From: a virus
Virus record (IMG/VR): IMGVR_UViG_3300042868_010856
Coordinates: 1 to 26,296 of that record
Direction: 5' to 3' (one strand)
Length of the DNA stretch: 26,296 nucleotides
Below the pieces are notes generated by a model, which worked only from the letters and a program-made list of their open reading frames with translations, did no database searches and was not told the DNA's origin. Positions 1 to 14,156 of this stretch are shown in pieces. Every line of letters starts with the position of its first letter. The first letter of the stretch is position 1. The position numbers and the translations under genes are program-made.

Positions 1-152
1 GTCTCGCAGTAGCTTACGCCCTGCGCGTTAAAGAAGATCGTGACCGGCTCGCGTTCATTCTGAAAGCCGTAGTCGAAGACGAAGCCAAATACAGAATCCT
101 GCGCAACGAAGCCGCAGCACTGCGTAAGGCCCGTGACAGCAAGCACGTCTAA
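1..152 (+). CDS. C-terminal end of an unidentified protein (5' partial)
   Basis: The frame is open from the window edge (first full codon at 3) to a TAA at 150-152. It gives 49 residues rich in Arg, Lys, Glu and Ala, with a helical, charged look (LRVKEDRDRLAFILKAVVED, then RNEAAALRKARDSKHV). No motif is recognisable from so short a tail. Its stop codon lies inside the first copy of the 14-bp palindrome, the same arrangement as the next genes, so it is probably the preceding member of the same operon. Confidence 0.6.
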   Translation, partial: LAVAYALRVKEDRDRLAFILKAVVEDEAKYRILRNEAAALRKARDSKHV

Positions 153-160
153 GATTAGAC
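147..160. promoter_or_regulatory. 14-bp palindrome, copy 1 (GTCTAA-GA-TTAGAC)
   Basis: Perfect 6-bp arms around a 2-bp centre. The TAA of the left arm is the stop codon of the upstream gene, and the site lies 40 bp before the MoxR gene start. It is one of seven copies in the window. The symmetry suits a dimeric DNA-binding protein. As RNA it could also form a 5-bp stem with a 4-nt loop. Confidence 0.7.
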
Positions 161-199
161 CAACCGTTAAGTAAAACCCAACCTATCTAGGAAACCAAA

Positions 200-1261
200 A
201 TGAAACTCGCAATCAACCTTTCTCAAGCCACCACCCTGATCGAAAACTGCGGCGCAAGCAACACCATCCTGTTGCGGGGTGCACCCGGCGTAGGCAAGTC
301 AAGCATCCTCAAGACGCTGGCCCAACGCATGCCGGACTACCTGCCCTGCTATATCGACGTGGCCAACCTCGACCTTGGTGACTTGGCCATGCCAGTGATT
401 GACCGGGACAGCATGACCACATCGTATGCACCCAACGCTCGCTTCGGTATCGCCAAGGGTCAGCGCAAGCCCGTGCTGCTCATGCTCGACGAGTTGGGTA
501 AAGCCTCACGCCCTGTGCTCAACATGCTGTTGCCCGTCATCCTCGAACACCGACTGGGTGACGTTGAACTGCCCGTGGGTAGCGTGGTGTTTGCGACGAC
601 CAACCTTGACACCGATGGGGTGGGCGACAACATCCCTGCACATGCATACAACCGCATGACTGTGGTCAACGTGGGCAACCCGACAGCGGACGAGTGGTTG
701 CACTGGGCCGCGGCCAACGACGTGACCCCCGAGGTGATGGTGTTCGCCAAGCAATACCCGCAGGTGTTCGACAGCTACACCGACTTGGATGACGGCGACA
801 ACAACCCGTATATCTTCAACCCACGCGCTGGTCAGATCAAGGCGTTCTGCTCACCACGTTCGCTGGAGAAAACATCCAACATCATCAAGCGACGTGAGGT
901 GTTGGGTGATGCGCTTATCCCTGCACTGGCTGGCACGATCGGCGAGTCAGCGGCGCGTGACATGGAAGCCCTCGTGCACTTGGCCGACCAGATACCTACG
1001 TTCGAGGCAGTGACCACAGCGCCCGACAAGACCAAGCTGCCCGAGGGTGCAGGTGCTTACTTCCTCATGGCGTTCATGCTGGCTGGCCGTGTCAAAGAGG
1101 ACACGATGGATGCAGTCATGGCCTACGTCGATCGTTGGGAACAGTTCGAGGCACGGACTCTGTTCATCTCCACGCTGGCGACCAACGCATCCAAGGTAGG
1201 TATGGCATGCAAGAACAAAGCGTTCACCAAGCAAGCCGCATCGCTGGGCAAATACTTCTAA
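200..1261 (+). CDS. MoxR/CobS-type AAA+ ATPase
   Basis: This 353-aa protein is an AAA+ ATPase of the MoxR/CobS type, a class that usually couples ATP hydrolysis to remodelling or metal insertion together with a VWA-domain partner. It shows Walker A GAPGVGKS at residues 27-34, Walker B LLMLDE at 93-98, a sensor-1-like ATTN at 132-135, and an NRM segment at 151-153 that may carry an arginine finger. The C-terminal third looks like the helical lid. The VWA partner is encoded two genes downstream in the same direction, the normal context for this family. The start at 200 follows AGGAAACCAAA. Translation covers the usual single-ATPase-domain length. Function as an ATPase is secure. The substrate is unknown, and no CobN-like chelatase subunit is present, so cobalt insertion is not supported. 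Confidence 0.9.
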   Translation: MKLAINLSQATTLIENCGASNTILLRGAPGVGKSSILKTLAQRMPDYLPCYIDVANLDLGDLAMPVIDRDSMTTSYAPNARFGIAKGQRKPVLLMLDELGKASRPVLNMLLPVILEHRLGDVELPVGSVVFATTNLDTDGVGDNIPAHAYNRMTVVNVGNPTADEWLHWAAANDVTPEVMVFAKQYPQVFDSYTDLDDGDNNPYIFNPRAGQIKAFCSPRSLEKTSNIIKRREVLGDALIPALAGTIGESAARDMEALVHLADQIPTFEAVTTAPDKTKLPEGAGAYFLMAFMLAGRVKEDTMDAVMAYVDRWEQFEARTLFISTLATNASKVGMACKNKAFTKQAASLGKYF

Positions 1262-1269
1262 TCTTAGAC
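1256..1269. promoter_or_regulatory. 14-bp palindrome, copy 2 (TTCTAA-TC-TTAGAC)
   Basis: Differs from the perfect palindrome only at the first base. TAA at 1259-1261 is the stop codon of the MoxR gene. The site is directly followed by the GGAG of the next gene. Confidence 0.65.
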
Positions 1270-1273
1270 GGAG

Positions 1274-1289
1274 CACCCCTCGCGGGGTG
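1274..1289 (+). promoter_or_regulatory. Hairpin between Shine-Dalgarno and start codon
   Basis: CACCCC-TCGC-GGGGTG is a perfect 6-bp stem with a 4-nt loop. GGAG at 1270-1273 is 23 nt from the ATG at 1297, too far for normal initiation. Folding the 16-nt hairpin leaves 7 nt, an ideal spacing. No other good ribosome-binding site lies nearer the ATG. Confidence 0.55.
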
Positions 1290-1296
1290 AAACACA

Positions 1297-1866
1297 ATGG
1301 CAAATTCATTTGACGCAGTGCGCGATCTGCGCACACCGGGGCTTGTGATTGGCTCAATCTACATCGACCCACAACAGGTTCCCAAGCGCATCAAGACAGC
1401 AACCCAACGCATGCTACGTAAGCTCACGGTGACCGGGGGGCATAGCTCTAAGTCTCGTAAGCTGTTCGAGATGCTCATGCAAGACTACGGGGACAACGTG
1501 GCGTGGATATGCGACTGGGGCACGGTCTTCAACATCCACCTCACACCCCAACCCTTGCGCGATCAGTGGTGCGAGTATCTGGAGCTGGACTACACCATAC
1601 GTTCGGCGAATGGGCGCTACCCCACTCCTATCAACCAGAGTTACGCACGGGATTCTACGGAGGCGGCAATTGCGCGAGTGCGTAGCGGCACGAGCAGATA
1701 TGCAGGCTTCTCAAACGACACGGCCCGGTGCGACGACGCAGTAACCCCGTTGGTTGTCGAAGCGTTCCTTACACACATGCCGCCTGAACACAAGGCCATA
1801 GGTGAAGCACTCGCCGCTCGACTCGACGGCACTGCGCCCATCCCAGTAAGTATTCGAGGCATCTAA
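1297..1866 (+). CDS. Unknown protein encoded between MoxR ATPase and VWA protein
   Basis: This 189-aa soluble protein has no motif I recognise. The N-terminal half is basic (KRIKTATQRMLRKL, then SSKSRKLFEML) and contains a Trp/Cys-rich stretch (VAWICDWGTVFNIHL). The C-terminal half has RYPTPINQSYARDSTEAAIARVRSG and a helical end. There is no signal peptide or membrane segment. It sits between the AAA+ ATPase and the VWA/metallopeptidase gene, so it may be an adaptor or third subunit of that complex. That role is inferred from position only. Translation probably depends on the hairpin-spaced ribosome-binding site upstream, and the stop codon lies in the third palindrome. Confidence 0.75.
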   Translation: MANSFDAVRDLRTPGLVIGSIYIDPQQVPKRIKTATQRMLRKLTVTGGHSSKSRKLFEMLMQDYGDNVAWICDWGTVFNIHLTPQPLRDQWCEYLELDYTIRSANGRYPTPINQSYARDSTEAAIARVRSGTSRYAGFSNDTARCDDAVTPLVVEAFLTHMPPEHKAIGEALAARLDGTAPIPVSIRGI

Positions 1867-1874
1867 TCTTAGAC
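1861..1874. promoter_or_regulatory. 14-bp palindrome, copy 3 (ATCTAA-TC-TTAGAC)
   Basis: One base from perfect symmetry. TAA at 1864-1866 is the stop of the upstream gene. GGAG follows at once, and the VWA gene starts 12 bp after the site. Confidence 0.65.
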
Positions 1875-1885
1875 GGAGAACGACA

Positions 1886-3073
1886 ATGACACCACTTGAC
1901 CGAATCAAAAAAGCCCACGTCAGTATCATGAGACACAAGCGCTTCTGCGCTTTCTCTGGTGTGCTGGCCTGTGGCGAGACGACCATTGACGACACCATCC
2001 CCACGGCATGCACCAACGGCTGGGACAAGCGATACAACTCGACGTTCGTATCGACCGTGCTGGCCAGTGACCCATGCTTGCGCTTCGTTGTGTTGCATGA
2101 GGCCATGCATGCGTCATACAAGCACCTCACTGTATGGCGCACCCTGTGGAAAGAGAACGCACAGTTGGCCAACATCGCCGCCGACCACTTCGTGAACCTT
2201 GCTCTGCAAGACATGGACAAGGACGAGGGGTTCATCCTCATGCCCGAGGTAGGTGTGCAACCCGATGCCAAGTATCGTGGCTGGTCAGTCCATCAAATCT
2301 TCAACGACCTCAAGCAGCAGCAACAGCAGAACCCCAACTCGGGCGATGGCGACGGTGAGGGTGACGGCTCAGGCAGTGGCATCGACGAGCATGACTGGGA
2401 GAACGCAGGTCAGAAGGATGCCAAGACCCAAGCCGCGCAAGCCCAAGAGATTGATCGTGCTCTGCGTCAGGGCGAGGCACTGGCCCGCAAGCGTGGCGAG
2501 GGTGCGGGTGACAAAGATGGTGTGTTGGGTGACTTGCTCAAGCCTCAAGTTAACTGGCGCGAGAAGCTACGTGAGTTCGTGCAGCAGACATGCCAAGGCA
2601 ACGACGAGAGCACATGGCGCAAACCCAACCGACGCTACCTGACACAGGACATATACATGCCCTCCATGCACAGCGAGACGATGGGTGAGCTGGTCATTGG
2701 GTTCGACACGTCGGGCTCTTGCTTCTCGGGTACGGTCCTCACTAGGTTCAGCAGTGAGATCGCGGCCATCGTTGCGGCGGTTCGACCTGAGAAAACCCGC
2801 GTGATCTATTGGGACTACAACGTGCAGCTTGAGCAGGTGTTCGACAACGGCGAGTTCAGCATGAGCAGCCTCACACCCCGCGGCGGTGGCGGCACTGATG
2901 GTTCCGTGCTGGCCGACTACCTCAAGGAGAAGCACATCACACCGCAAGCGATCGTGCAGTTCACCGATGGCTACGTAGGTAGCTGGGGCGACGAGGTTGC
3001 ACCAACACTGTGGGCCATCACCGAGAACCACATCCGCGCACCGTTCGGCCAGACGTTGCACATCGACGTCTAA
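1886..3073 (+). CDS. Metallopeptidase-like plus VWA domain protein (DUF2201-like), MoxR partner
   Basis: This 395-aa two-domain protein has a putative metallopeptidase domain at the N-terminus with HEAMH at residues 71-75 inside VVLHEAMHASYKHL. A flexible Gln- and Gly/Asp-rich linker follows at about 143-166. The C-terminal VWA domain carries a MIDAS metal site: DTSGS at 274-278, Thr337 in GGGGTD, and Asp361 in FTDG. This matches the DUF2201 putative-metallopeptidase/VWA-like architecture that is commonly encoded beside MoxR ATPases. The expected role is substrate recognition or target binding for the ATPase. Whether HEXXH is catalytically active cannot be seen. GGAGAACGACA upstream of 1886 is a good ribosome-binding site. 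The palindromes flank the gene on both sides. Confidence 0.88.
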   Translation: MTPLDRIKKAHVSIMRHKRFCAFSGVLACGETTIDDTIPTACTNGWDKRYNSTFVSTVLASDPCLRFVVLHEAMHASYKHLTVWRTLWKENAQLANIAADHFVNLALQDMDKDEGFILMPEVGVQPDAKYRGWSVHQIFNDLKQQQQQNPNSGDGDGEGDGSGSGIDEHDWENAGQKDAKTQAAQAQEIDRALRQGEALARKRGEGAGDKDGVLGDLLKPQVNWREKLREFVQQTCQGNDESTWRKPNRRYLTQDIYMPSMHSETMGELVIGFDTSGSCFSGTVLTRFSSEIAAIVAAVRPEKTRVIYWDYNVQLEQVFDNGEFSMSSLTPRGGGGTDGSVLADYLKEKHITPQAIVQFTDGYVGSWGDEVAPTLWAITENHIRAPFGQTLHIDV

Positions 3074-3081
3074 TCTTAGAC
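3068..3081. promoter_or_regulatory. 14-bp palindrome, copy 4 (GTCTAA-TC-TTAGAC)
   Basis: Perfect arms. TAA at 3071-3073 is the stop of the VWA gene. AAGGAG of the next gene begins immediately after the site and its ATG is at 3094. Confidence 0.7.
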
Positions 3082-3093
3082 AAGGAGAACATC

Positions 3094-3492
3094 ATGGGAT
3101 ACAGAAGCCAAGTGACAGCAGTCATCTACCCCGCCGCACCCGAGGACCCACTAGGTCCCGACGCATACAAAGAGTATGAGGCTGAGAAGTATGAAGCACT
3201 GCGGGTCCTGATGAGCACCAAGTTCGAGCAGCTTATGGGCAAGTGGTTCGGCGGTGAAGCGCAGTGGGACGACCGGAATCAGCGCCTCGTGTTCGAGATG
3301 CAAGACGTCAAGTGGTACGAGAGCTACGAGGACGTGAAAGCGTTTGACGCGATGCTCATCAACATTACAGAGCTTGGGTATTGCTCAGAGTTTGTCCGCG
3401 TCGGCGAGGAGACTGATGACATTGAACATCGGTACGAAGGCGACGGCGTGAAATACATACTGAATGTGCAGCGAACCATCACGATTGACTAA
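3094..3492 (+). CDS. Conserved phage protein beginning MGYRSQV
   Basis: A 132-aa acidic protein. I chose the ATG at 3094 because AAGGAG lies just upstream; a longer frame from 3010 would run back into the VWA gene. The N-terminus MGYRSQVTAVIYP resembles a small family of phage proteins that begin MGYRS(D/E)V, whose function is unknown to me. The middle is rich in Trp, Tyr and acidic residues (KWFGGEAQWDD, VKWYESYEDVKAFD). There is no membrane segment. It is followed after 10 bp by the next gene, with its own AAGGAG. Confidence 0.8.
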   Translation: MGYRSQVTAVIYPAAPEDPLGPDAYKEYEAEKYEALRVLMSTKFEQLMGKWFGGEAQWDDRNQRLVFEMQDVKWYESYEDVKAFDAMLINITELGYCSEFVRVGEETDDIEHRYEGDGVKYILNVQRTITID

Positions 3493-3502
3493 GGAGTTCA
3501 AC

Positions 3503-4138
3503 ATGACGACCAAAGAAATTTCCGTGCTTGAGTTGCAGAAGCTCGACCCCAAGCGGTTCGAGCGTGAGTATTGGGATTGGGTGTCACACCACTGGTGGGA
3601 AGGCGACAACACCATCGAATGGTTTGTTTCCGAGCAAACGTCTAAGGGTATCTTGGACATTGACCCGAAGGACGTCACCTACTCTGGGTTCTACTCGCAG
3701 GGCGACGGCGCGGCGTTCGATGCCCGTGTGGACGTGCTGCGATTCATGCGCGACAAGGGCTACGACAACACCTACATGCCGCTGTATATGGACATGGAGA
3801 ACTACGGCGTGACGTGCAAAGTCAGTCGTGGGAGTCATCGTGCCAACTACATGGCGCAGGGCGCGGACATTGACTACACACCGGGCAACTGTTTGCCCGC
3901 AGGGATATTCAGCGACATGAGCCAAGAGGATTGGGACACGCTGTTGGAAGAACAGTGGGGCTACCTTGAGAACGAGCTGGCCACAGAGATTCACGAGTAC
4001 GCCAAGGATGCGGCCGAGGAACTCTACAAGGCGCTCGAAGAGGACTACGACGCATGCACCAGTGAAGAGGCGTTCATAGATTCCTGTGAGTGCAACGAGG
4101 TAACTTTTAAATTGGAGGATGAATCATGCGAGGCTTAG
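3503..4138 (+). CDS. Conserved phage protein with SGFYSQGDGAAF motif
   Basis: This 211-aa acidic protein starts at the ATG preceded by AAGGAG. It contains YSGFYSQGDGAAFDARV at about residues 65-80, a motif I recall from hypothetical proteins of podoviruses and other phages, followed by a long acidic, probably helical C-terminal half (residues about 150-211, many Glu and Asp). No catalytic motif or membrane segment is visible. A 13-bp overlap with the next gene indicates translational coupling. Function unknown. Confidence 0.8.
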   Translation: MTTKEISVLELQKLDPKRFEREYWDWVSHHWWEGDNTIEWFVSEQTSKGILDIDPKDVTYSGFYSQGDGAAFDARVDVLRFMRDKGYDNTYMPLYMDMENYGVTCKVSRGSHRANYMAQGADIDYTPGNCLPAGIFSDMSQEDWDTLLEEQWGYLENELATEIHEYAKDAAEELYKALEEDYDACTSEEAFIDSCECNEVTFKLEDESCEA

Positions 4139-4392
4139 TAAAAATTGGTGGGCGTGATGTTGTGCTCAACGAAGCACGCATGGCTGCACTGCTTGACCTG
4201 ATGCGCGACGCGGTGCACATCAAGGACGAATACATCGGCAGCAACAAGGGCGACAACGGCACCAACTACAAGAAGCTGGTGCGCGCAATCCCTATGGAAG
4301 AGCTGCTGGGTATAACCCTCATGCCCGATGACTACATCGACACACTGATTTTCAAAACCAAACTGCATGACGAAGCGGCAAGCTCCAAGTAA
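4126..4392 (+). CDS. Small protein of unknown function
   Basis: An 88-aa protein that starts inside the end of the preceding gene, with GGAGG 9 bp upstream of the ATG. It has a basic N-terminus (MRGLVKIGGRDVVL) and a helical middle (ARMAALLDLMRDAVHIKDEYIGSNK). No known domain. Confidence 0.72.
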   Translation: MRGLVKIGGRDVVLNEARMAALLDLMRDAVHIKDEYIGSNKGDNGTNYKKLVRAIPMEELLGITLMPDDYIDTLIFKTKLHDEAASSK

Positions 4393-4411
4393 GCCGCGTG
4401 TAAGCAAACTC

Positions 4412-4425
4412 ATCTACGATTAGAC
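4412..4425. promoter_or_regulatory. 14-bp palindrome, copy 5, imperfect (ATCTAC-GA-TTAGAC)
   Basis: The right arm is intact; the left arm has two changes. The site lies in the 47-bp gap before the DUF3150-like gene, just upstream of its AGGA. Unlike copies 1-4 it does not carry a stop codon. Confidence 0.5.
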
Positions 4426-4439
4426 AATAGGAAAACACA

Positions 4440-5342
4440 ATGACACAACAAAACGTAGCCGGTGTGGCCCGTGCAGCCATGCTCGTATCCCTGAACATCA
4501 GCACCTACTCTGGACGCAAGCAAGACAAGCGCACCCAAGGCGAGGTCACTACATCCAAAGGTTCTGGCTCTACCCGTGCGGCGTCGGTATACAAGAACCT
4601 GTTCGCTGACTGCGCCGAGCTGGATGCCATCGTGAAGTTCCAAGCTCGTGCTCGTATGCGCCACTACCAAATGACCCTGCCTTGGGATGACATGGGCCCA
4701 CGCCTGTTGTCTACCGCGGCCTTCATGGACTACAAGACGGACATGAACCGCTATGAAGATCAGTTTAGGTTGCTGGTCGATGCGTTCCTCGACAAGTACG
4801 AGACGCTGGTGGCTGCTGCTGCGTTCAAGCTGGGCACTCTCTTTGACCGTGACGAATACCCCGAGCGCTCGAAGATCGCCAAGAAGTTTAGCTTCGACCT
4901 TACGTTCACACCCCTGCCCACCTCGGGCGACTTCCGACTGGACATTGAGCGTGAGGTGCAGGACGACTTGGTTCGTCAGTATGAACAGCGCTTGCAGATT
5001 CAGGTTGCGGCCGCACAGCAAGATGCATGGCGTCGTATGCACGAGGTGCTCACCCGCCTCAAGGACCGTCTAACATTAGACGACATGGGCAAGCGCAAGA
5101 CGTTTCACGACACGACAGTGACCAACGCGCAGGAGCTTTGCGGTCTGTTGACTCAGCTCAACGTGACCAACGACCCCGCGCTTGAGAAAGCCCGACAACA
5201 GCTTGAGGCAGCGATGGCTGATGTTGACCCCAAAGAACTCCGCAAGGAGGAGAGTGTGCGCCTCGACACCCTGCAGAAAGTCACCTCGACTCTCGACGCA
5301 TGGGACTGGGGCATTGAAGAAGGAGTAGCGAATGACGAGTGA
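4440..5342 (+). CDS. DUF3150-like protein, probable part of the MoxR/VWA module
   Basis: A 300-aa, mostly helical, charged protein with no membrane segment. Residues about 8-30 read VARAAMLVSLNISTYSGRKQDK. The middle has YEDQFRLLVDAFLDKYETLVAAAAFKLG and FTPLPTSGDFRLD. The end is coiled-coil-like (EKARQQLEAAMADVDPKELRKEE). Layout and sequence fit DUF3150, an uncharacterised family I recall near MoxR/VWA genes in phages and proteobacteria. That assignment is from memory of the family and is moderate. AGGAAAACACA precedes the ATG. A copy of the palindrome lies inside the gene at 5068-5081. Confidence 0.75.
   Translation: MTQQNVAGVARAAMLVSLNISTYSGRKQDKRTQGEVTTSKGSGSTRAASVYKNLFADCAELDAIVKFQARARMRHYQMTLPWDDMGPRLLSTAAFMDYKTDMNRYEDQFRLLVDAFLDKYETLVAAAAFKLGTLFDRDEYPERSKIAKKFSFDLTFTPLPTSGDFRLDIEREVQDDLVRQYEQRLQIQVAAAQQDAWRRMHEVLTRLKDRLTLDDMGKRKTFHDTTVTNAQELCGLLTQLNVTNDPALEKARQQLEAAMADVDPKELRKEESVRLDTLQKVTSTLDAWDWGIEEGVANDE
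5068..5081. promoter_or_regulatory. 14-bp palindrome, copy 6, inside coding sequence (GTCTAA-CA-TTAGAC)
   Basis: Perfect arms, extended to 16 bp by flanking C and G. It is read as Arg-Leu-Thr-Leu-Asp, with CTA and TTA leucine codons that are uncommon in the surrounding gene. Confidence 0.6.
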
Positions 5343-5625
5343 CCAGATGGATGACTTGGTTAACACGCAGCCACACGTCTGCCGGTATGTGGAACAGGTG
5401 GATGGGTCGTGGAACCTGAGCATGTTTTTCCCAGCCGAGTCCAAACGAGGTGAAGGCGCGGGTGGCACAGTTGGTACGCAACCCGCGTGGCTCAAGAAGA
5501 TCGTGGACATAGCCATAGTAGCTGACGCGTTTCAAGTAGTGCCGCACCCACCACCGGGGCGCGTCTTGTGGTTCGAGCTGGACGACCACGGCGATTTTTT
5601 GACATTCAGAGACCCAGCAAAGTAA
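5332..5625 (+). CDS. Small phage protein of unknown function
   Basis: A 97-aa protein that overlaps the end of the preceding gene by 11 bp, with GAAGGAG upstream of the ATG. It contains a Gly-rich loop (ESKRGEGAGGTVGTQ) and a Pro-rich stretch (FQVVPHPPPGRVLWFEL). No known domain. Confidence 0.7.
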   Translation: MTSDQMDDLVNTQPHVCRYVEQVDGSWNLSMFFPAESKRGEGAGGTVGTQPAWLKKIVDIAIVADAFQVVPHPPPGRVLWFELDDHGDFLTFRDPAK

Positions 5626-5634
5626 GGACCTAAC

Positions 5635-5817
5635 ATGTATGAACACTTGAGCGATCAAGAATTGCTGCGCATGGCGCAGCACGAGACCCACCCGTTGTTG
5701 GTGGCCATTGCAGAACGCCTCGACATGAGGATACGTGACTTGGAGGACTACGATGCCCACCCCAAACCCTACCACCCCCAGCAACTCGAACTCGACTTCG
5801 GAGGTTCCAATGAATGA
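5635..5817 (+). CDS. Small acidic protein of unknown function
   Basis: A 60-aa protein with a helical N-terminus (SDQELLRMAQHETHPLLVAIAERLDMRIRDLEDY) and a Pro-rich tail. AAGGACC precedes the ATG. It overlaps the next gene by 8 bp. Confidence 0.7.
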   Translation: MYEHLSDQELLRMAQHETHPLLVAIAERLDMRIRDLEDYDAHPKPYHPQQLELDFGGSNE

Positions 5818-5992: not shown

Positions 5993-5994
5993 AA

Positions 5995-6366: not shown

Positions 6367-6590
6367 AATACGTTGCCGCAATCTGGCTGGCGCTTACCAT
6401 CTTCATCGGTTACGAACTGATGGGGATGGCATTCACCAAGGGCTACGAGCAGGGCTACGTTGAGGGGCGTGAACGCGCCTTGATGGACGATCAGTCGCTC
6501 TACAAGCACTGCACCGCTTGGTGGTTCGATGGCAGTGAGCCACGGGCCATCAAGGAGATCAACAAGTACTGTGATCGGAGAAGCAAATGA
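6363..6590 (+). CDS. Small protein with N-terminal membrane segment
   Basis: A 75-aa protein with a GTG start that overlaps the previous TGA. The N-terminal hydrophobic segment (VAAIWLALTIFIGYELMGMAF) is followed by a soluble, charged part with two Cys residues. It is probably a signal anchor with the tail in the periplasm. It overlaps the next gene by 4 bp. Function unknown. Confidence 0.68.
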   Translation: MKYVAAIWLALTIFIGYELMGMAFTKGYEQGYVEGRERALMDDQSLYKHCTAWWFDGSEPRAIKEINKYCDRRSK

Positions 6591-6916
6591 AACACATCAT
6601 CACGGCGCTGGCCCTTGTTGCCAGCACAACCGCATCGGCGCAGTTCTACTCGGGCAACGAGCTGCTCCAGCGCATGGACTCTGGAGATGCTAGTCAAAAC
6701 ATGCTGGCCATGGGTTATGTGGCTGGCGTGGTTGACATGACTCGCGGTGAATACCACTGCGCCCCCGCAACCGTGACGCTCGGTCAAGTGCGGGACATGG
6801 TGCGCAACTACATCTACAACAACCCCGCCAATCGACACATGAACGGCTCGGTGTTGGTGGCTTTACCTCTCGTGGAGATATGGCCCTGCGTTACAAAGAA
6901 AGGCGGGAAGTTATGA
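6587..6916 (+). CDS. Secreted Rap1a/Tai-like protein
   Basis: A 109-aa protein with a clear signal peptide (MKHIITALALVASTTASA, cleavage expected before Gln19). The mature part reads GYVAGVVDMTRGEYHC, then TLGQVRDMVRNYIYNNP, ending LVEIWPC. This pattern fits the Rap1a/Tai family, named for periplasmic immunity proteins that neutralise type VI secretion amidase effectors and also common as small phage proteins. The two mature Cys residues could form a disulfide. GGAG is 4 nt before the ATG, and the gene overlaps its upstream neighbour by 4 bp. The phage role is not known. Family assignment is from memory of the motif. Confidence 0.75.
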   Translation: MKHIITALALVASTTASAQFYSGNELLQRMDSGDASQNMLAMGYVAGVVDMTRGEYHCAPATVTLGQVRDMVRNYIYNNPANRHMNGSVLVALPLVEIWPCVTKKGGKL

Positions 6917-6942
6917 ACAACACAAACACAGGTGGACCAGCG

Positions 6943-6970
6943 TTGACAGATCAATTCAAAATAGTACACT
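6943..6970 (+). promoter_or_regulatory. Sigma70-type promoter for the zinc-finger/HNH gene
   Basis: TTGACA at 6943-6948, a 16-bp AT-rich spacer, and TACACT at 6965-6970. The gene starts at 6998 with AAGGAG at 6987-6992. The -10 box sits in a small interrupted repeat, TACA-C-TGTA. Confidence 0.65.
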
Positions 6971-8574: not shown

Positions 8575-8854
8575 GCTGGCCCGTGAGGCTCAGATGCCGT
8601 ATTTCTGGCAATCAGGTGAGATTGCACATCTTGAACAACTCAAACGCTTTGAAGCCCTTGCCCGTGCTGACGAGCGAGAGGCGTGTGCGAAGGTGGCTGG
8701 TTGGTTGCATCAGCAATACATTGACACCAAGGACGCGCACGAACGTCTTTCGTCAGAACCGTTTAGGTCTAGTCAATTTGGGTTTGACCAATCAACGGTT
8801 CAGCAGTCACAACGGATTGCTGACGCCATCCGAGCAAGAGGAGAAACCAAATGA
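8558..8854 (+). CDS. Small phage protein (EALARADEREACAKV type)
   Basis: A 98-aa protein. AAGGAG upstream supports the ATG at 8558 over earlier in-frame starts inside the previous gene. LKRFEALARADEREACAKVAGWL and IADAIRARGETK are typical of a widespread class of short phage proteins of unknown function. Mostly helical. It ends in a 4-bp overlap with the next gene. Confidence 0.72.
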   Translation: MRDTIELAREAQMPYFWQSGEIAHLEQLKRFEALARADEREACAKVAGWLHQQYIDTKDAHERLSSEPFRSSQFGFDQSTVQQSQRIADAIRARGETK

Positions 8855-9219
8855 ACGAACAACAACTGGCCGCAGTGAAACAGGCGCTGGGGGCGTTGAA
8901 AAAAGGCACTGGGTGGATGGAGCATGGAGAGATCATCACCGCCCTGCAATCCATCATCAGCCAAGACGCCCTCGACAAGAAGGCAGAGAACGCCCGTGAG
9001 CTTGGGTTAAATTATGACGATGAGCCAAAGATCGGCTGTGTGAACCACGACTGCGACAAGTGCAGGGCGCAGGAGCCATCTGTAAAAACTTGGGTGGGGC
9101 TGACGGATGAAGAGCGTGATGCAATTACAGTGATGCGGACGGCAAAGTGGCGCAATAGGTTCAGAAACCACGCCAAAGCCGTTGAGCAATTGTTAAAGGA
9201 AAAGAACCATGACCACTGA
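8851..9219 (+). CDS. Small phage protein with WVGLTDEE motif, copy A of a duplicated pair
   Basis: A 122-aa protein. Residues 1-50 are helical. NHDCDKCR in the middle carries a CxxC pair. The C-terminal part begins TWVGLTDEERDAI and ends LLKEKNHDH. The last third matches the 55-aa product at 9301-9468 in motif order (WVGLTDE, then KEKNH), and each is followed by a one-segment membrane microprotein. Start overlaps the previous stop. Function unknown. Confidence 0.7.
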   Translation: MNEQQLAAVKQALGALKKGTGWMEHGEIITALQSIISQDALDKKAENARELGLNYDDEPKIGCVNHDCDKCRAQEPSVKTWVGLTDEERDAITVMRTAKWRNRFRNHAKAVEQLLKEKNHDH

Positions 9220-9304
9220 AGCAATTCAAATCCTGTTGGCGCTGGCTTTTGGCGCGGCGTTTGGCCTCATTGTGGGCTGGGCATTATGGGGAGAGAAGCG
9301 ATGA
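9209..9304 (+). CDS. 31-aa membrane microprotein A
   Basis: MTTEAIQILLALAFGAAFGL followed by IVGWALWGEKR: one hydrophobic segment with a basic end. AAGGAAAAGAACC lies before the ATG. Its last codon overlaps the ATG of the next gene (ATGA). It pairs with the microprotein at 9461-9562. Confidence 0.6.
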   Translation: MTTEAIQILLALAFGAAFGLIVGWALWGEKR

Positions 9305-9468
9305 TTGACGACGACGATACACAAGAGTACGCACACCAGCGCCAGTGGGTTGGGCTGACGGATGAGGACATCGAGCAGGGCTGGAAAGAGTCTTGGGTGG
9401 ACAAGCAAGCGTTTGAGTCCGCCGTCTGGTGGGCTGAGAAAAAACTCAAGGAGAAGAACCATGGATGA
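9301..9468 (+). CDS. 55-aa phage protein with WVGLTDED motif, copy B
   Basis: MIDDDDTQEYAHQRQ followed by WVGLTDEDIEQGW and ending AEKKLKEKNHG. It starts at the ATGA overlap and resembles the C-terminal third of the 8851-9219 product, so it is likely a shortened duplicate. It overlaps the next gene by 8 bp. Confidence 0.65.
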   Translation: MIDDDDTQEYAHQRQWVGLTDEDIEQGWKESWVDKQAFESAVWWAEKKLKEKNHG

Positions 9469-9562
9469 CTGGGACCAACTGCAAACCATCTGCCTGTACG
9501 TTATCTACATGACCATCATCATTGGCTTCGGCATGTTGGTGGCTTTCTGGATCATGGCATGA
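9461..9562 (+). CDS. 33-aa membrane microprotein B
   Basis: MDDWDQLQTICLYVIYMTII followed by IGFGMLVAFWIMA: one hydrophobic segment and an acidic N-terminus. AAGGAGAAGAACC before the ATG nearly repeats the leader of microprotein A. It ends in a 4-bp overlap with the next gene. Confidence 0.6.
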   Translation: MDDWDQLQTICLYVIYMTIIIGFGMLVAFWIMA

Positions 9563-9972
9563 GAGTCAAGTACGTCAGCAAGAACACAGCCCTCAACCCT
9601 GTGGCCCGTGCCATGGCGCAGAAGAAGCTGGCCGATGACCTGACCACCCGCAAGATCAAGCTCTACATGATGGAAGACGGTGAGCCATGCGCTGACCTAC
9701 TGGAGAACTTGGCCTTGATGCTGGCGACCATCGGTGTGGCCTCAGAGATGGACCCTGACATCGGCGGTGAGGATGTGGGTGTGCGCATACTGCGTGGTGG
9801 GATGTCTGCATGCCAAGCCCTGATCAAGACGGACAAGTGGGACTCCGCTCAAGCGGTGCCCATCGAACGCGCACTGGACGAGGCGCAGGTGCTGAACCGG
9901 CGGGTACACCCCGTTTACATCGCTCGGGCAAACTCCATACGAACTGAGATTCACAACGAGGTACAGAAATGA
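9559..9972 (+). CDS. Conserved phage protein of unknown function
   Basis: A 137-aa soluble, mostly helical protein. It has a basic N-terminus (MRVKYVSKNTALNPVARAMAQKKLADDL), then GEPCADLLENLALMLATIGVASEMD and a C-terminal helix. No signal peptide, membrane segment or known catalytic motif. It overlaps both neighbours by 4 bp. Confidence 0.72.
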   Translation: MRVKYVSKNTALNPVARAMAQKKLADDLTTRKIKLYMMEDGEPCADLLENLALMLATIGVASEMDPDIGGEDVGVRILRGGMSACQALIKTDKWDSAQAVPIERALDEAQVLNRRVHPVYIARANSIRTEIHNEVQK

Positions 9973-10154
9973 AATACGAACAAGCCAAGCCGCTGGTCGA
10001 GAAGCTGATGATCATATCTACGCTTTACTTCGGTTCACCAAGCCTGTTGCGAGAGAAGATATACAACGCACTGGACGAGTTCCTGCCGGACCTCGACGAG
10101 GGATGCCGGGAGCGCGGGTGCATTGCAGTGGATGACTTTAAGGAGAAACCATGA
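9969..10154 (+). CDS. Small protein of unknown function
   Basis: A 61-aa acidic protein with helical content (LVEKLMIISTLYFGSPSLLREKIYNALDEFLPDL) and two Cys near the end (GCRERGC). It starts at an ATGA overlap and ends in one. Confidence 0.66.
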   Translation: MKYEQAKPLVEKLMIISTLYFGSPSLLREKIYNALDEFLPDLDEGCRERGCIAVDDFKEKP

Positions 10155-10330
10155 ACATCGACGAACGAGTCTGGCCCCTGCCCAACGCATTCAACATCCG
10201 AGAGGGTAGTCCGTTTGGCAAGAGTGAGAAGATGATCAAAGACCAAGAGCAATCCCTCAAGGCATCCAAGGCGGGTCAGGCCCACCGAGCCAAGACCAAA
10301 GACACTCGCTTTAAACCCAAGGCAAAATAA
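10151..10330 (+). CDS. Small basic protein of unknown function
   Basis: A 59-aa protein, MNIDERVWPLPNAFNIREGS onward, with a strongly basic C-terminus (KASKAGQAHRAKTKDTRFKP). AAGGAGAAACC precedes the ATG. It could bind nucleic acid. It overlaps the next start by one base (TAATG). Confidence 0.62.
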   Translation: MNIDERVWPLPNAFNIREGSPFGKSEKMIKDQEQSLKASKAGQAHRAKTKDTRFKPKAK

Positions 10331-10530
10331 TGCTTCGCATCTTCTTCGCCGACTTCATCCGTTTACTCCACCCCCCGACCGCCATCAAGCTGGCCGAGGA
10401 AGAGTTAAATCAAGCCCAGCGTGAATTACTTAGAGCGTACAGCTCAGAAGAGTACGCACACCACATGGCCAACTACCACGAAAAGCGCATCGAGCGCTTA
10501 ACCAAATTTATCGAACAACAGAAAGCATGA
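10330..10530 (+). CDS. Small coiled-coil protein
   Basis: A 66-aa protein with an N-terminal amphipathic stretch (MLRIFFADFIRLL) followed by a heptad-like helix (AEEELNQAQRELLRAYSSEEYAHH, then EKRIERLTKFIEQQK). Start shared with the TAATG junction. Function unknown. Confidence 0.65.
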   Translation: MLRIFFADFIRLLHPPTAIKLAEEELNQAQRELLRAYSSEEYAHHMANYHEKRIERLTKFIEQQKA

Positions 10531-10531
10531 C

Positions 10532-10744
10532 ATGAACGATCGTGAAATTGATCTGCTTGTCGCAGACCTTCAATATGAAAACCGTCAACTCAGAAACCAA
10601 CGTGACGCCGCAGTCGAAGAAGCTATCCACCTGCGACACACCCTCGAGCACATCTACGCAAAATGTGTTCTGGCCATTCAAACGGGTGGACCCTCGACTC
10701 CTCGAGGCAATCCACAAGCGCACGGTGACAAAGCATCGTATTGA
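10532..10744 (+). CDS. Small coiled-coil protein, overlapped by another frame
   Basis: A 70-aa protein, MNDREIDLLVADLQYENRQL onward, with a helical heptad pattern to about residue 45 and then a Gly/Pro-rich tail. The ATG lies just after the upstream stop (ATGACATGA) with no strong ribosome-binding site, so it is probably translated by re-initiation. The last 170 bp are shared with a second frame at 10575-10778. Confidence 0.6.
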   Translation: MNDREIDLLVADLQYENRQLRNQRDAAVEEAIHLRHTLEHIYAKCVLAIQTGGPSTPRGNPQAHGDKASY

Positions 10745-10778
10745 TCAACTCAACCAACTAGGAGAAGCAACACTATGA
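10575..10778 (+). CDS. Possible overlapping small gene
   Basis: A 67-aa frame offset by one base from the preceding gene. Its C-terminal half (WPFKRVDPRLLEAIHKRTVTKHRIDQLNQL) has a convincing charged helical pattern and G/C-rich third positions. Its stop overlaps the ATG of the next gene (ATGA), the junction style used throughout this region. The N-terminal half is Ser/Thr-rich and less protein-like, and there is no good ribosome-binding site at 10575, so the true start is uncertain. Confidence 0.45.
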   Translation: MKTVNSETNVTPQSKKLSTCDTPSSTSTQNVFWPFKRVDPRLLEAIHKRTVTKHRIDQLNQLGEATL

Positions 10779-11062
10779 CAACACCAACCAGCACCGAGAC
10801 TATCCTGCAAGAACGTGGTAACCGCTACGGCACCTTCGTTGACAATGCATCAACCTCGCAATCCCTCAAGCGCGTGATGGCGCAGCACTTGGCCAAGCAC
10901 AACAAAGAACTGGCCGACGACCAGTGGGAAGCTATGGAGATGATCGCTCACAAGCTGGCCCGCATCATCAACGGCGACCCGGACTACCACGACAACTGGG
11001 CCGACATTGCGGGCTACGCCAAGCTCGTAGCCGATCGACTCGAAACAGGCAAGGAGGCTTGA
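10775..11062 (+). CDS. DUF6378-like phage protein
   Basis: A 95-aa protein containing ILQERGNRYGTFVDNA near the N-terminus and QWEAMEMIAHKLARIINGDPDY followed by DNWADIAGYAKLVADRL. This matches the pattern of a common phage family (DUF6378 as I recall it), whose function is unknown. TAGGAGAAGCAACACT precedes the ATG. It is all-helical and of the usual length for the family. Confidence 0.8.
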   Translation: MTTPTSTETILQERGNRYGTFVDNASTSQSLKRVMAQHLAKHNKELADDQWEAMEMIAHKLARIINGDPDYHDNWADIAGYAKLVADRLETGKEA

Positions 11063-11063
11063 T

Positions 11064-11366
11064 ATGTCCGCTATCAACAACGCATGGAACCGCACAACGT
11101 CAACGGCAACGGAAGAAATGATTAAACAGCAGTATCAACAAGCCATCGGGGGTGGCGGAGGCAGCGGAGGCGTTACCACTAGCATCGCCCAAAGCCGTAT
11201 GTATCACCCCGACCGATGGGAAACTGGTACCGCCACTACGCGGTTTACTGTGACCAAAGCGTCGAACGGATACATACTCGAAACCGGTGCCGAGGTATAC
11301 ATCGCCGACACCGTCGAACATGTGCAAGGTATCGTGGCCACCATGCTGATTGCAAAGGCTGAGTGA
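11064..11366 (+). CDS. Small protein of unknown function
   Basis: A 100-aa protein with an N-terminal region (NNAWNRTTSTATEEMIKQQYQQA), a Gly-rich hinge (IGGGGGSGG) and a beta-looking C-terminus (TRFTVTKASNGYILETGAEVYIAD). It overlaps the nuclease gene by one base (TGATG). Confidence 0.68.
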   Translation: MSAINNAWNRTTSTATEEMIKQQYQQAIGGGGGSGGVTTSIAQSRMYHPDRWETGTATTRFTVTKASNGYILETGAEVYIADTVEHVQGIVATMLIAKAE

Positions 11367-11743
11367 TGGCTGATACCCCAGAGGCCAAAGTCAAGAAAAA
11401 GATTCACGCCCTCCTCAAGAGTGTCGGTGCCTATGCGGTGAACTACATCGGTGGGCAGTACGCCAACAGCGGAACCCCAGACATTCTGGTGTGCATCAAA
11501 GGCCGGTTCGTTGGTATCGAGGCCAAGGCTGGGCGAGGTAAGCCCACGCAGCTACAACTCAACAACCTACGCAACATTCACGATGCCGGTGGTGTAGCAC
11601 TCATCATCAACGAGCAGAACTTGCACACGCTTTCCGGAGCGCTACTGGCAACCGTCATTGGGGGACAGCCCTCCAACTACACCGACTTCTTACCTAAAAC
11701 TCCAATAGAGAACACCGATGAGCCAACTTTGCGCCGCAGGTAG
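11366..11743 (+). CDS. VRR-NUC domain nuclease
   Basis: A 125-aa single-domain nuclease of the VRR-NUC branch of the PD-(D/E)XK superfamily. The core is GTPDILVC (Asp39), GRFVGIEAKAG (Glu52, Lys54) and KPTQLQ (Gln64), followed by AGGVALIIN. Stand-alone VRR-NUC proteins in phages are thought to act as structure-specific or Holliday-junction nucleases. I take ATG 11366, which overlaps the previous stop, over the adjacent GTG 11363. Last gene before the promoter of the HNH gene. Confidence 0.85.
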   Translation: MADTPEAKVKKKIHALLKSVGAYAVNYIGGQYANSGTPDILVCIKGRFVGIEAKAGRGKPTQLQLNNLRNIHDAGGVALIINEQNLHTLSGALLATVIGGQPSNYTDFLPKTPIENTDEPTLRRR

Positions 11744-11758
11744 GGACTAGCGTACAAT
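11729..11758 (+). promoter_or_regulatory. Probable promoter for the HNH gene
   Basis: TACAAT at 11753-11758 is a good -10 box. The best -35 match, TTGCGC at 11729-11734, is poor, with an 18-bp spacer. The position, in the only gap between VRR-NUC and HNH genes, supports it. Confidence 0.45.
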
Positions 11759-11765
11759 AGACTCA

Positions 11766-11777
11766 TAGAATATTCTA
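11766..11777. promoter_or_regulatory. 12-bp perfect palindrome (TAGAATATTCTA)
   Basis: Located at or just after the expected transcription start of the HNH promoter and touching its AGGAG. A repressor site here would block transcription start or elongation. It is unrelated in sequence to the 14-bp palindrome. Confidence 0.4.
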
Positions 11778-11787
11778 GGAGTCAAGA

Positions 11788-12270
11788 ATGGCTAAACAGC
11801 AAACACCGGAGTCGTTTTGGGCAAAGGTATCCGTAGGAGCGCCCGCCGAGTGTTGGGAGTGGCAGCGATGTGTAAATTCGTCTGGGTACGGCAATGTCGC
11901 GTGGGGACAAAAACTATACACCGCGCATCGTGTTTCCGCGTGGTTAAGCGGTTTGGTTGCTTCGCCGTCAGCGCCTTCTAGTAGCCGCGAGCCCACACAC
12001 GTACTGCATACATGCGACAACCGTCGATGCTGCAACCCCGGGCATTTCTTCCTAGGGACGTTTTCAGACAACATGGTTGACGCGTACAAGAAGAAGCGCA
12101 AACAACAACCTACCGGCGCGCGGCATGTAAACGCCAAGCTAACCGCAGCCCAAGCGACTGAGATACGGAAGCGATATACGGCCGGCGAGCTGCAGGTTCC
12201 GTTAGCCAAAGAGTATGGCGTGTCACAGCGCGCAATTAGTTTAGTTGTTAGAGGAGAAACGTACAAATGA
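11788..12270 (+). CDS. HNH endonuclease with C-terminal HTH (homing type)
   Basis: A 160-aa protein. CWEWQ at 22-26 and GYG at 33-35 begin the HNH_3-type fold. AHR at 46-48, VLHTCDN at 72-78 and CCNPGHFFLGTFSDN at 81-95 give the HNH core (His47, His74, Asn83, His86), with cysteines that can hold a structural zinc. After a basic linker, residues 118-155 form a DNA-binding helix-turn-helix (EIRKRYTAGELQVPLAKEYGVSQRAISLVV in two parts). This architecture is that of free-standing phage homing endonucleases. It has its own promoter and overlaps the DNA polymerase gene by 4 bp. Polymerase genes are a frequent target neighbourhood for such elements. Confidence 0.85.
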   Translation: MAKQQTPESFWAKVSVGAPAECWEWQRCVNSSGYGNVAWGQKLYTAHRVSAWLSGLVASPSAPSSSREPTHVLHTCDNRRCCNPGHFFLGTFSDNMVDAYKKKRKQQPTGARHVNAKLTAAQATEIRKRYTAGELQVPLAKEYGVSQRAISLVVRGETYK

Positions 12271-14156
12271 CCAGAATATGTGTATGCGATTTAGAAACTT
12301 TTTATGACCGGGATTTCTCCCTGTCGCGTATCACCACCGAAGCGTATGTGCGGGACACGCGGTTTGAGACCATTGGCCTGAGCTACACCTTCGGAGACAA
12401 GACCGAGTGGCTACCCCGCCCCAAGGTCAACGAGTTCCTGCGGGATACCGACTGGAGCGACACCATGATCGTGGCGCAGAACACTGCGTTCGACGGCTCC
12501 ATCCTGCACTGGCACTACAAGGTGCAACCCAAAGCGTGGCTAGATACCTTGGGTATGTCCCGCGCCCTGTTCCCACACGAGAAGTCGCACAGCCTCAAGG
12601 CACAGGCCGATCGCATGGGTGTAGGCGTCAAGGGCGACGAGGTGCTTAACGCGCTGGGCAAACGCTACAAAGACTTCACATCCGAGGAGCTGGCACGCTA
12701 CGGCATGTATTGCAACAACGACGTGGACCTGACGCGCAAATTGTTTACGATGTACATGGGCATGGGGTTCCCACTCCAAGAACTCAAGCTCATCGACATG
12801 ACGCTGCGCATGTTCATCGAGCCTCGTCTAATCTTAGACGTGCCGTCGCTCCAGCTTCATCTGGAGAGGGTACGATCATCTAAGCTTGCTTTGCTTGAGC
12901 GTGTGCGCGACAACATGCTGCGCGATTACACGGACCCCGAAGCCGTGCGGGCTGTGTTTGCCGATGGCACCGAAGGCATCAAGACTCTGCTCATGTCCAA
13001 TGAGAAGTTTGCACAGGCCCTACGTGACCTCAACGTCGAGCCGCCCATGAAGATCAGCCCGACGACCAAGCGCCCTGCGTATGCGTTCGCCAAAACCGAC
13101 GAGGCGTTCAAGGAGCTGGCCGAGCATGATGACTTGGACGTTCAAGCGTTGGTGGCTGCACGCCTTGGCAACAAGACCACGCTGGAGGAGACCCGCACGG
13201 AGCGGTTCATCGAGATGGCTACCCGCGGTGCGTTCCCTGTGCCCCTGCGTTACTACGGTGCCCACTCGGGGCGCTGGTCTGGCCAAGACTCTGTGAACAT
13301 GCAGAACCTGCCGAGCCGTGGACCGGACGCTGGCAAGATCAAGAAGGCGATTAAAGCACCCCCGGGGCACATGATGATTGACTGTGACTCCGCGCAGATC
13401 GAAGCCCGTGTGCTGGCGTGGCTTGCTGGGCAGGATGACTTGGTGCAAGCTTTCGAAAGGAAAGAAGATGTTTACAAGCTCATGGCCTCAAAAATTTATG
13501 GCGTACCTATCGACCAGATCACCAAGCAGCAACGCCAAGTCGGAAAGACTGTGGTTCTTGGCGCAGGTTACGGGGTTGGCCACGTCAAACTTCAAGGGTT
13601 CCTCAAGACCCAAGCGGGTGTCGAGGTCTCGTTGGATGAGGCCAAGCGTATCATCGACACGTACCGGAATTCTGCGTATCGCATTGCGGACCTCTGGAAG
13701 AAGGCCGGCTCGGCTCTTCAGTACCTCATCGCAGGGCAGGAATTTACTGTCGATTCGCCCGGGATCGTTCGTGTCGTACCCGGTAGAGGACTGACGCTGC
13801 CCAGCGGCCTATTCGTCCAATACCCCGACCTGCGTTCAATCCGCAACGAGGAAGGCAAGCAAGAGTTTGTCTACACTTCCAAAGGTCTGCCTGTGCGTAT
13901 CTACGGCGGGAAGGTGGTGGAGAACTTTACGCAAGCCATCGCCCGTTGTGTTGTGGCCGAGCAGATGCTACGTATCCAGAAGCGCTACCAAGTGGTGCTG
14001 ACCGTGCATGACGCCGCGGCCATCGTCGCTCCCATAGCAGAGGCCAAAGAGGCGCAGTTGTTTGTGGAGAACTGCATGAGCTGGGTGCCTAAGTGGGCTA
14101 CGGGCCTACCACTGGCGTGTGAGTCTGGCATGGGAGAAAGCTATGGCGACTGTTGA
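12267..14156 (+). CDS. Family A DNA polymerase with 3'-5' exonuclease domain
   Basis: A 629-aa phage replicative polymerase. The N-terminal DEDD-type exonuclease has CDLET (Asp8, Glu10), QNTAFDG (Asp76) and YCNND (Tyr148, Asp152). The polymerase domain has motif A DCDSAQIEAR (Asp374, Glu379), O-helix motif B RQVGKTVVLGAGYG (Arg423, Lys427, Leu431, Tyr435) and motif C VHD (His581, Asp582). There is no 5'-3' exonuclease domain, as usual for phage enzymes. The position equal to E. coli Pol I Phe762 is Leu431. The start overlaps the HNH gene (ATGA), with AGAGGAG upstream. A palindrome copy lies in the gene at 12826. Confidence 0.95.
   Translation: MTRICVCDLETFYDRDFSLSRITTEAYVRDTRFETIGLSYTFGDKTEWLPRPKVNEFLRDTDWSDTMIVAQNTAFDGSILHWHYKVQPKAWLDTLGMSRALFPHEKSHSLKAQADRMGVGVKGDEVLNALGKRYKDFTSEELARYGMYCNNDVDLTRKLFTMYMGMGFPLQELKLIDMTLRMFIEPRLILDVPSLQLHLERVRSSKLALLERVRDNMLRDYTDPEAVRAVFADGTEGIKTLLMSNEKFAQALRDLNVEPPMKISPTTKRPAYAFAKTDEAFKELAEHDDLDVQALVAARLGNKTTLEETRTERFIEMATRGAFPVPLRYYGAHSGRWSGQDSVNMQNLPSRGPDAGKIKKAIKAPPGHMMIDCDSAQIEARVLAWLAGQDDLVQAFERKEDVYKLMASKIYGVPIDQITKQQRQVGKTVVLGAGYGVGHVKLQGFLKTQAGVEVSLDEAKRIIDTYRNSAYRIADLWKKAGSALQYLIAGQEFTVDSPGIVRVVPGRGLTLPSGLFVQYPDLRSIRNEEGKQEFVYTSKGLPVRIYGGKVVENFTQAIARCVVAEQMLRIQKRYQVVLTVHDAAAIVAPIAEAKEAQLFVENCMSWVPKWATGLPLACESGMGESYGDC
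12826..12839. promoter_or_regulatory. 14-bp palindrome, copy 7, inside polymerase gene (GTCTAA-TC-TTAGAC)
   Basis: Perfect arms, extended to 16 bp by flanking C and G. It is read in the same frame as copy 6, giving Arg-Leu-Ile-Leu-Asp with CTA and TTA leucine codons. It falls near the exonuclease/polymerase domain boundary. Confidence 0.55.

Follow-up and report, generated by a model that had tools for sequence, protein, structure and literature searches.

Dispersed palindromes in the early region of an IMG/VR phage record and its relatives: candidate sites for a phage-encoded regulator

In virus record IMGVR_UViG_3300042868_010856, a 14-bp palindrome, GTCTAA-N2-TTAGAC, occurs seven times, at the ends of genes as well as inside them. 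This raises the question of what a phage might do with one short word scattered over many genes. The window analysed here is the complete IMG/VR record of 26,296 bases, which looks like a fragment of a phage genome because it starts within a gene and is without most structural genes. We consider it probable that a dimeric, phage-encoded protein binds the copies as double-stranded DNA and through them regulates transcription of the early region.

Seven palindromes at gene ends and within genes

A pattern scan of the window with GTCTAANNTTAGAC returned four exact copies, two copies with one mismatch and one copy with two (Table 1), in agreement with the positions and counts of a first-pass annotation made from the letters of the window. 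Since no further site at two or fewer mismatches was found in the 26,296-base record, positions 12840-26296 are empty of copies, and all seven are located within the first 12.84 kb. In 300 dinucleotide-preserving shuffles, the mean numbers of exact, one-mismatch and two-mismatch sites were 0, 0.017 and 0.41, respectively; the total at two or fewer mismatches averaged 0.43 per shuffle with a maximum of 3, versus 7 in the window. At three mismatches the excess was gone (9 found versus 4.9 expected, with 5 of 100 shuffles reaching 9).

Gene junctions hold five of the seven copies, and two lie inside genes. At copies 1 to 4 the upstream gene ends in frame on the left-arm TAA. In both in-gene copies an outer C..G pair lengthens the palindrome to 16 bp, and the reading is R-L-x-L-D with CTA and TTA, codons that make up 5.5% and 3.7%, respectively, of the leucine codons (n = 507) in 31 window genes. 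The first-pass annotation had described the four embedded stops and the Arg-Leu-x-Leu-Asp reading with its rare leucine codons, and both were recovered.

Table 1. Copies of the palindrome and a candidate regulator gene in the window.
Feature	Sequence	Position	Strand	Mismatches	Context
Copy 1	GTCTAAGATTAGAC	147..160		0	stop (TAA) of the upstream gene inside; 39 nt ahead of the ATPase start at 200
Copy 2	TTCTAATCTTAGAC	1256..1269		1	ATPase stop codon inside; next gene start 1297
Copy 3	ATCTAATCTTAGAC	1861..1874		1	stop of gene 1297-1866 inside; 11 nt ahead of the VWA gene start at 1886
Copy 4	GTCTAATCTTAGAC	3068..3081		0	VWA stop codon inside; next gene start 3094
Copy 5	ATCTACGATTAGAC	4412..4425		2	intergenic; 14 nt ahead of gene 4440
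Copy 6	GTCTAACATTAGAC	5068..5081		0	within gene 4440-5342 (300 amino acids); codons CGT CTA ACA TTA GAC
Copy 7	GTCTAATCTTAGAC	12826..12839		0	within the family A DNA polymerase gene 12267-14156; codons CGT CTA ATC TTA GAC
Cro/CI-type helix-turn-helix (HTH) protein, 86 amino acids, candidate regulator		18609..18869	+		Pfam HTH_3, E 4.9e-10

Palindrome words and their positions in related phages

Among other genes, the window encodes a MoxR/AAA-type ATPase, a DUF2201 VWA/metallopeptidase-like protein (VWA gene), a family A DNA polymerase and an HTH_3 protein. An IMG/VR scan for the exact 14-mer matched at least 120 stretches. More than two sites at one or fewer mismatches were present in only one of the 141 loci L005-L145, namely L041, and three others had two sites. 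L017, a locus on the L125 contig, owes its exact match to the polymerase site of a close relative, and the remaining single matches are chance-like. L041 corresponds to record G001 (3300047306_000042; 39,918 bases) and contains 13 sites at two or fewer mismatches, all at 2.3-11.4 kb, and zero sites for a reversed control pattern. Its ATPase and VWA proteins are 68% and 59% identical to those of the window. Five sites were found in L151 (3300037606_000081; 9,575 bases) and one, in the polymerase gene, in L125 (4,156 bases), whose polymerase is 89% identical to the window's. Relatives of the VWA gene were not detected in IMG/VR by a single-sequence scan and were obtained with an alignment search. 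The VWA comparison set (n = 9) comprised the window, L150 (part of G001, reversed), L151, L157, L155, L156, L167, L169 and L171.

Other relatives carry other palindromes. L157, which is record G009 (3300010158_000299), contains ATCTAANNTTAGAT in 8 exact copies, or 11 at one or fewer mismatches. This word differs from the GTCTAA word at both outer bases together, a symmetric change. The palindromes of distant relatives include CTAATACGCGTATTAG, TAAACANNTGTTTA, CTTTTAANNTTAAAAG, TGGTACAACGTACCA, TGGGCTTANNTAAGCCCA and GTTACC-N6-GGTAAC (Table 2). In a control of three first-order shuffles for each of 31 sequences, the largest palindrome family with 6-bp arms had 1-2 copies. This control is fairer than shuffles of single records, which overstate the significance of a word because the patterns were drawn from the same records.

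Table 2. Palindrome words of other relatives (exact matches unless a mismatch is stated).
Word	Record or locus	Copies
CTAATACNNGTATTAG	L155	9
TAAACANNTGTTTA	L156	5
CTTTTAANNTTAAAAG	L167	2 (4 with one mismatch)
TTGTTTAAACAA	L169	3
TGGTACNNNGTACCA	L171	3
TGGGCTTANNTAAGCCCA	G008	6
GTTTGACNGTCAAAC	G006	3; weak case
GTTACT-N5-AGTAAC	G012	6 (20 with one mismatch)
GTTACT-N6-AGTAAC	G007	2 (7 with one mismatch)
GTTACA-N4-TGTAAC	G014	2 (12 with one mismatch)
GTTACC-N6-GGTAAC	Rhizobium phage RHph_TM3_14A	15 (38 with one mismatch)
ACAAACGGAG-N5-CTCCGTTTGT	G013	8; possibly a different element

The sites recur in part at homologous places across relatives whose proteins are 56-69% identical. Within the comparison set, a site lies ahead of the ATPase gene in the window, L150 (9971) and L157 (8744), and not in L155, L156 or L171. 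Six of the nine members (the window, L150, L151, L157, L167 and L171) have one ahead of the VWA gene; a degenerate site in L156 was counted as a miss at this junction, and L155 and L169 have none. The end of the VWA gene is occupied in four of eight, i.e., the window, L157 (11168), L167 (3451) and L155 (10836). No site stands directly there in L150, L151, L169 and L171, and the contig of L156 is cut off at this point. As in the window, the ATPase stop codon is embedded in the phage's own palindrome in L167 (542). Outside the set, G008 has sites ahead of both the VWA and the ATPase genes, and RHph_TM3_14A has one at the VWA gene end. The homologue of window gene 4440 is preceded by a site in L155 (7303) and L171 (1419). 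Inside this 300-amino-acid gene, the site is present in the window, L150 (14148) and L151 (4276) and not in L157, and each of the four records of the group with sequence at the polymerase position (the window, L125, L151 and L157) keeps the site there, which L126 lacks. Taken at the level of sequence comparison, each phage group has its own word at corresponding positions. The first-pass annotation had named a lack of conservation at homologous junctions of relatives as grounds for refuting its proposal; the motif was kept at several of these junctions, though not at all of them.

A near-coincidence was seen in L132 (record G007), where that phage's own word, TTTACTCTCGATAGTAAC, occurs with one mismatch at 6728-6745 in the polymerase gene, approximately 4 bp from the window's position. 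This is one case and could be due to chance. In G013 (L206, L208), a long inverted repeat, GGACAAACGGAG-N5-CTCCGTTTGTCC, occurs at 11 places at four or fewer mismatches, several of them just before start codons; instead of an operator, this repeat may form a hairpin in RNA.

Codon usage was compared at the in-gene copies. All four group members write the polymerase site as CTA-ATN-TTA-GAY despite differing neighbouring codons, and L126, the next relative (65% identical polymerase), writes CTG-GTG-CTT-GAC. Among polymerases without the word, one of the two positions is occasionally filled by CTA or TTA (L127, L129, L130, L133). For comparison, a single codon was used in all four polymerases at 7 of 25 invariant leucine columns (L151 being partial). 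In the 300-amino-acid gene, the three site-bearing phages have CGT-CTA, versus CGC-TTG-ACC-GTC-GAT in the site-less L157. The Walker B motif of the ATPase, LLMLDELG, is identical in three phages, and L150, which has a site there, is alone in spelling it CTT-CTA-ATG-TTA-GAC. One common reading frame was used in the four in-gene cases examined. These codon comparisons demonstrate that the sites are under selection at the nucleic-acid level. The proposal of the first-pass annotation that selection acts on the site and not on the protein is borne out by the closest relatives without the site, which encode the same or similar residues with other codons.

Promoters, protein binding and candidate regulators

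In L150 and L157, the centre of a site lies 9.5 and 8.5 bp, respectively, upstream of the -35 box of a promoter-like match (TTGACA-17-CATAAT or TACATT), which precedes the first early gene, beyond the divergent terminase genes. In L155, a gap of 2 bp separates a site from TTGACA, with a weaker -10 box; L155 also has two TTGACA-17-TATAAT matches, with a site approximately 90 bp downstream of the -35 box. A promoter-proximal copy ahead of the first early gene is thus present, by sequence match, in three relatives.

The first-pass annotation had left two readings side by side, an operator for a dimeric protein and an RNA hairpin; the comparison with relatives strongly supported the former and gave no support to the latter. 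A hairpin GUCUA-NNNN-UAGAC, acting in translational control or mRNA processing, would agree with the several junction copies directly ahead of Shine-Dalgarno sequences, and the in-gene codon evidence is compatible with DNA and RNA alike. An RNA role is conceivable for the GTCTAA and RHph words, since the GTCTAA 14-mer folds into a 5-bp stem at -2.9 kcal/mol and one RHph copy folds at -6.6 kcal/mol. In contrast, the words of other relatives barely fold (UUGUUUAAACAA of L169, 0.0 kcal/mol; UAAACACAUGUUUA of L156, -0.7 kcal/mol), the inner A..T pair beside the 2-nt gap is conserved though unable to pair in RNA, and the copy upstream of the -35 box in three relatives lies outside the transcript of that promoter. 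Among 44 RHph copies on the transcribed strand, G.U outnumbered A.C at none of the position pairs with one or the other (A.C and G.U counts of 5 and 3 at pair 1/18, 2 and 1 at 2/17, 3 and 3 at 6/13, 8 and 3 at 7/12, 17 and 9 at 8/11, and 5 and 5 at 9/10), a pattern that does not indicate maintained stem pairing. Because A.C mismatches were at least as common as G.U pairs, we regard a hairpin as highly improbable. A search of the window against RNA families gave no match at gathering thresholds.

The variation among copies is consistent with protein binding. Across 36 sites from four records, the central dinucleotide was pyrimidine-purine in 25, two pyrimidines or two purines in 11, and purine-pyrimidine in none, a bias that we take as the signature of a dimer site. 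Arm changes in these 36 sites were one-sided in 16 cases, with one symmetric and one asymmetric double change. The copies are very probably protein-binding sites.

Repeats without a regulatory role, such as boundary sequences of recombination, could also gather at gene junctions, where five of the seven window copies are found. Such an origin is extremely improbable, given that the in-gene copies in conserved genes are held by way of synonymous sites, that the outer bases of both arms differ jointly between L157 and the GTCTAA records, and that a copy lies beside an early promoter-like sequence in three relatives.

The origin of the regulator was approached with three metagenome-assembled genomes (MAGs) that contain a related phage-like contig. 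Whole MAGs were searched; one phage-like contig has a terminase gene (L169), and the other two, of 4.7 and 6.4 kb, were judged by their ATPase-VWA genes. All exact matches of TGGTACNNNGTACCA (3/3) and TTGTTTAAACAA (3/3), and all matches of CTTTTAANNTTAAAAG at one or fewer mismatches (4/4), were on the phage-like contig of the respective MAG. In the other two of these three MAGs, the CTTTTAA word gave one exact and four one-mismatch matches. The confinement of the motif to the phage-like contig of its own MAG indicates that the regulator is probably phage-encoded, if the binning is right. A host-encoded regulator recruited by the phage, which the first-pass annotation had considered as a binder, is disfavoured by the same observation. 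For such a host protein speak the failure to find a regulator in the phage and the resemblance of the early promoters to host sigma-70 promoters; against it, in addition to the three MAGs, in which the binning may be wrong, the words differ between phages with approximately 70% identical ATPase and VWA proteins. We judge it quite improbable.

The regulator gene of the window's group may lie to the left of position 147, outside the contig, or may be the HTH gene listed in Table 1. Homologues of the HTH protein were present in two of the eight records searched (G005 and G006), both without the GTCTAA word, and the contigs of G001, G009, L151, L155 and L156 end ahead of the expected place of this gene. 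Other HTH-type candidates are the product of L151 5388-6182, a MarR-like protein whose gene directly follows a site, and a CI-like protein of approximately 150 amino acids in G007. A repressor with an HTH plus a Stoperator domain was established among none of the HTH-type candidates, with part of the proteins scanned and contigs incomplete.

The first early gene (L150 5782-6321, L157 4817-5329) was considered as the regulator and rejected: the products of L150 and L157 are 40% identical, and BLAST gave no significant similarity between those of L155, L156, L169 and G008 and these two, nor among the four. The products of L150, L155 and L156 had no GenBank phage match at E 0.01, and those of L150, L155, L156, L157 and G008 had no credible Pfam match. 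Presence/absence clustering of 1162 open reading frames (ORFs) from 23 records, in which G006 and G014 were counted as palindrome-negative, yielded not one protein family whose distribution follows the whole set of palindrome-bearing records. Six ORF families were confined to palindrome-bearing records, each present in 3 to 5 of 14; the most widespread of them (5/14) is partly a product of single linkage, and from its G009 member only those of G001 and G008 were found.

L157 also encodes a 200-amino-acid early protein (16241-16843) with a C-terminal sigma-70 region 4 domain (Pfam E 5e-14) and an N-terminal half without assignment, possibly a phage sigma-like regulator. The large terminase of G001 (L041 8939-11560) has 873 amino acids, compared with approximately 500-520 in L155, L156 and L157, and contains a long insertion that by eye looks like an intein; a 248-amino-acid ORF (L041 9850-10596) lies in another frame within the terminase gene. 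Further window genes encode a PD-(D/E)XK nuclease, an SNF2 helicase and a DUF927 protein, followed by a large LPD38-domain protein on the opposite strand. Positions 6587-6916 encode a small protein whose Pfam match is the Rap1a immunity domain (E 1e-15), and the L150 relative of gene 4440-5342 has a sub-threshold DUF3150 match.

Known dispersed operators and a model for the early region

To our knowledge, dispersed phage operators inside operons or genes are understood in detail for few systems, namely mycobacteriophage stoperators, SPbeta and phiC31. The conserved inverted repeats of phiC31, an unrelated Streptomyces phage, are reportedly palindromes to which the phage repressor binds, spread through its early region, and we found no paper on point. 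By this description the present sites would be similar, as palindromes dispersed in the early region. The C1 operators of phage P1 are dispersed, as are the sites here, and asymmetric, unlike the palindromes here.

In the cluster A mycobacteriophages (L5, Bxb1, Trixie), stoperators occur in many genome-wide copies, some at the early promoter and most not promoter-associated, and related cluster A phages have related but different stoperator words (PMC6550527). The stoperator is a 13-bp asymmetric sequence predominantly in one orientation, and in TipsytheTRex its binder is a monomer that carries two DNA-binding domains (PMC9283540). The present sites are alike in their dispersal (7 copies in the window, 13 in G001, 11 in L157) and in that few are near promoter-like matches; they differ in being palindromic rather than asymmetric 13-bp sequences. 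Unlike the cluster A mycobacteriophages, those relatives whose host is known infect proteobacteria. SPBRE of phage SPbeta is a 15-bp motif that occurs at about ten promoter regions and was recognised in silico well ahead of its protein, the repressor MrpR, which has a fold like that of tyrosine recombinases (PMC10516654). The present word is likewise a short motif at several phage promoter regions, seen in silico before a protein; unlike MrpR, no protein of the tyrosine-recombinase type was seen here (PF00589, 0 of 15 records; a diverged one would escape).

PMC8601537 mentions Rhizobium phages with RHph names, and 'palindrom' is absent from its text. A literature search for dispersed palindromes or repressor sites in phages returned no paper on the motif, most subscription journals lying outside its coverage. 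The sites appear to be a variant of an already known type of dispersed operator.

In a special case of a phage-encoded regulator, the phage would be temperate like L5 or SPbeta, and the copies could be the sites of its immunity repressor. The layout is alike: an operator-like copy at the early promoter, many copies at junctions and in genes, and group-specific sequences. Against this, a tyrosine integrase (PF00589, E 0.001) was found in none of 15 records, including the complete RHph_TM3_14A, most records being fragments in which a very diverged one would escape. Eleven of 12 records, again mostly fragments, had neither a resolvase nor a ParA-family match; both were present in G013 only. We therefore consider a lysogeny repressor unlikely. 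An 'integrase' annotated in RHph_TM3_14A (L159 31240-34323, equal to record 42239-45322) matches DUF927 and window gene 18971-21838 and is likely a misannotation.

Several observations weigh against reading the copies as sites for an early regulator. Lysogeny control is not indicated, because no tyrosine integrase was found in the 15 records, most of them fragments. The regulator was not found. By position the first early genes are its best candidates, and they share no recognisable homology between groups; the AlphaFold model of the first early protein of L150 was too poor to use (predicted local distance difference test score of 43, from a two-sequence alignment). None of the four promoter-like matches in the window lies within 60 bp of a site. 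Junction conservation is partial (6/9 before the VWA gene, 4/8 at its end). No above-chance palindrome family was detected in G004, G005, G015 and G016 despite homologous polymerase, ATPase or VWA genes, in the fetched parts of KPP25, Rollin, V45iii and nACB1, or in nine polymerase loci of 4-14 kb (L126, L129, L130, L133, L134, L136, L137, L139, L145). Sites also occur among the structural genes of RHph_TM3_14A and in the second half of G012, distributions that differ from those of the window, G001 and G008. Finally, the relatives are not a neutral sample, because most were found via VWA or polymerase similarity.

The VWA-bearing bacterial loci L168, L170 and L172-L187 had at most three copies of any exact family with 6-bp arms. 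L170, on a Spiribacter chromosome, was rejected as a prophage and looks like a host island without palindromes. Its ATPase-VWA pair (8887-11158 of the Spiribacter salilacus scaffold) is located on the bacterial chromosome beside large helicase-like genes, which by eye resemble a defence island, perhaps of the DISARM type.

With these points in view, the regulator reading can be put as a model. Each half-site is GTCTAA, with the two halves 2 bp apart. By sequence, copies are spread across the early operon, some at the ends of genes, some immediately ahead of Shine-Dalgarno sequences and some within genes. The bound protein would most likely repress the early promoter and block RNA polymerase at downstream copies, in the style of operators plus stoperators, so that one operator at the main promoter would be combined with roadblock sites within the operon. 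Operator and regulator would diverge together, with a specificity that changes fast; the change of word is observed between groups, and a matching change in its protein partner is predicted.

A further step, which we regard as distinctly doubtful, is that a phage lineage apparently without integration genes carries a 'barcode' operator every few early genes and has heteroimmunity without classical lysogeny. If true, the barcode would be rewritten in each phage group with many positions kept, and the regulator would silence the phage's own early operon, or that of a co-infecting sibling, and ignore relatives with another barcode. Independently of the barcode idea, the in-gene copies let one ask how coding sequence is bent to accommodate a binding site, and the synonymous codon switch at the Walker B motif is a clean case of a gene with two messages. 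The series of words in comparable gene contexts lets one ask how an operator and its regulator change specificity together, and the set includes a cultured phage, Rhizobium phage RHph_TM3_14A, in which the system can be tested.

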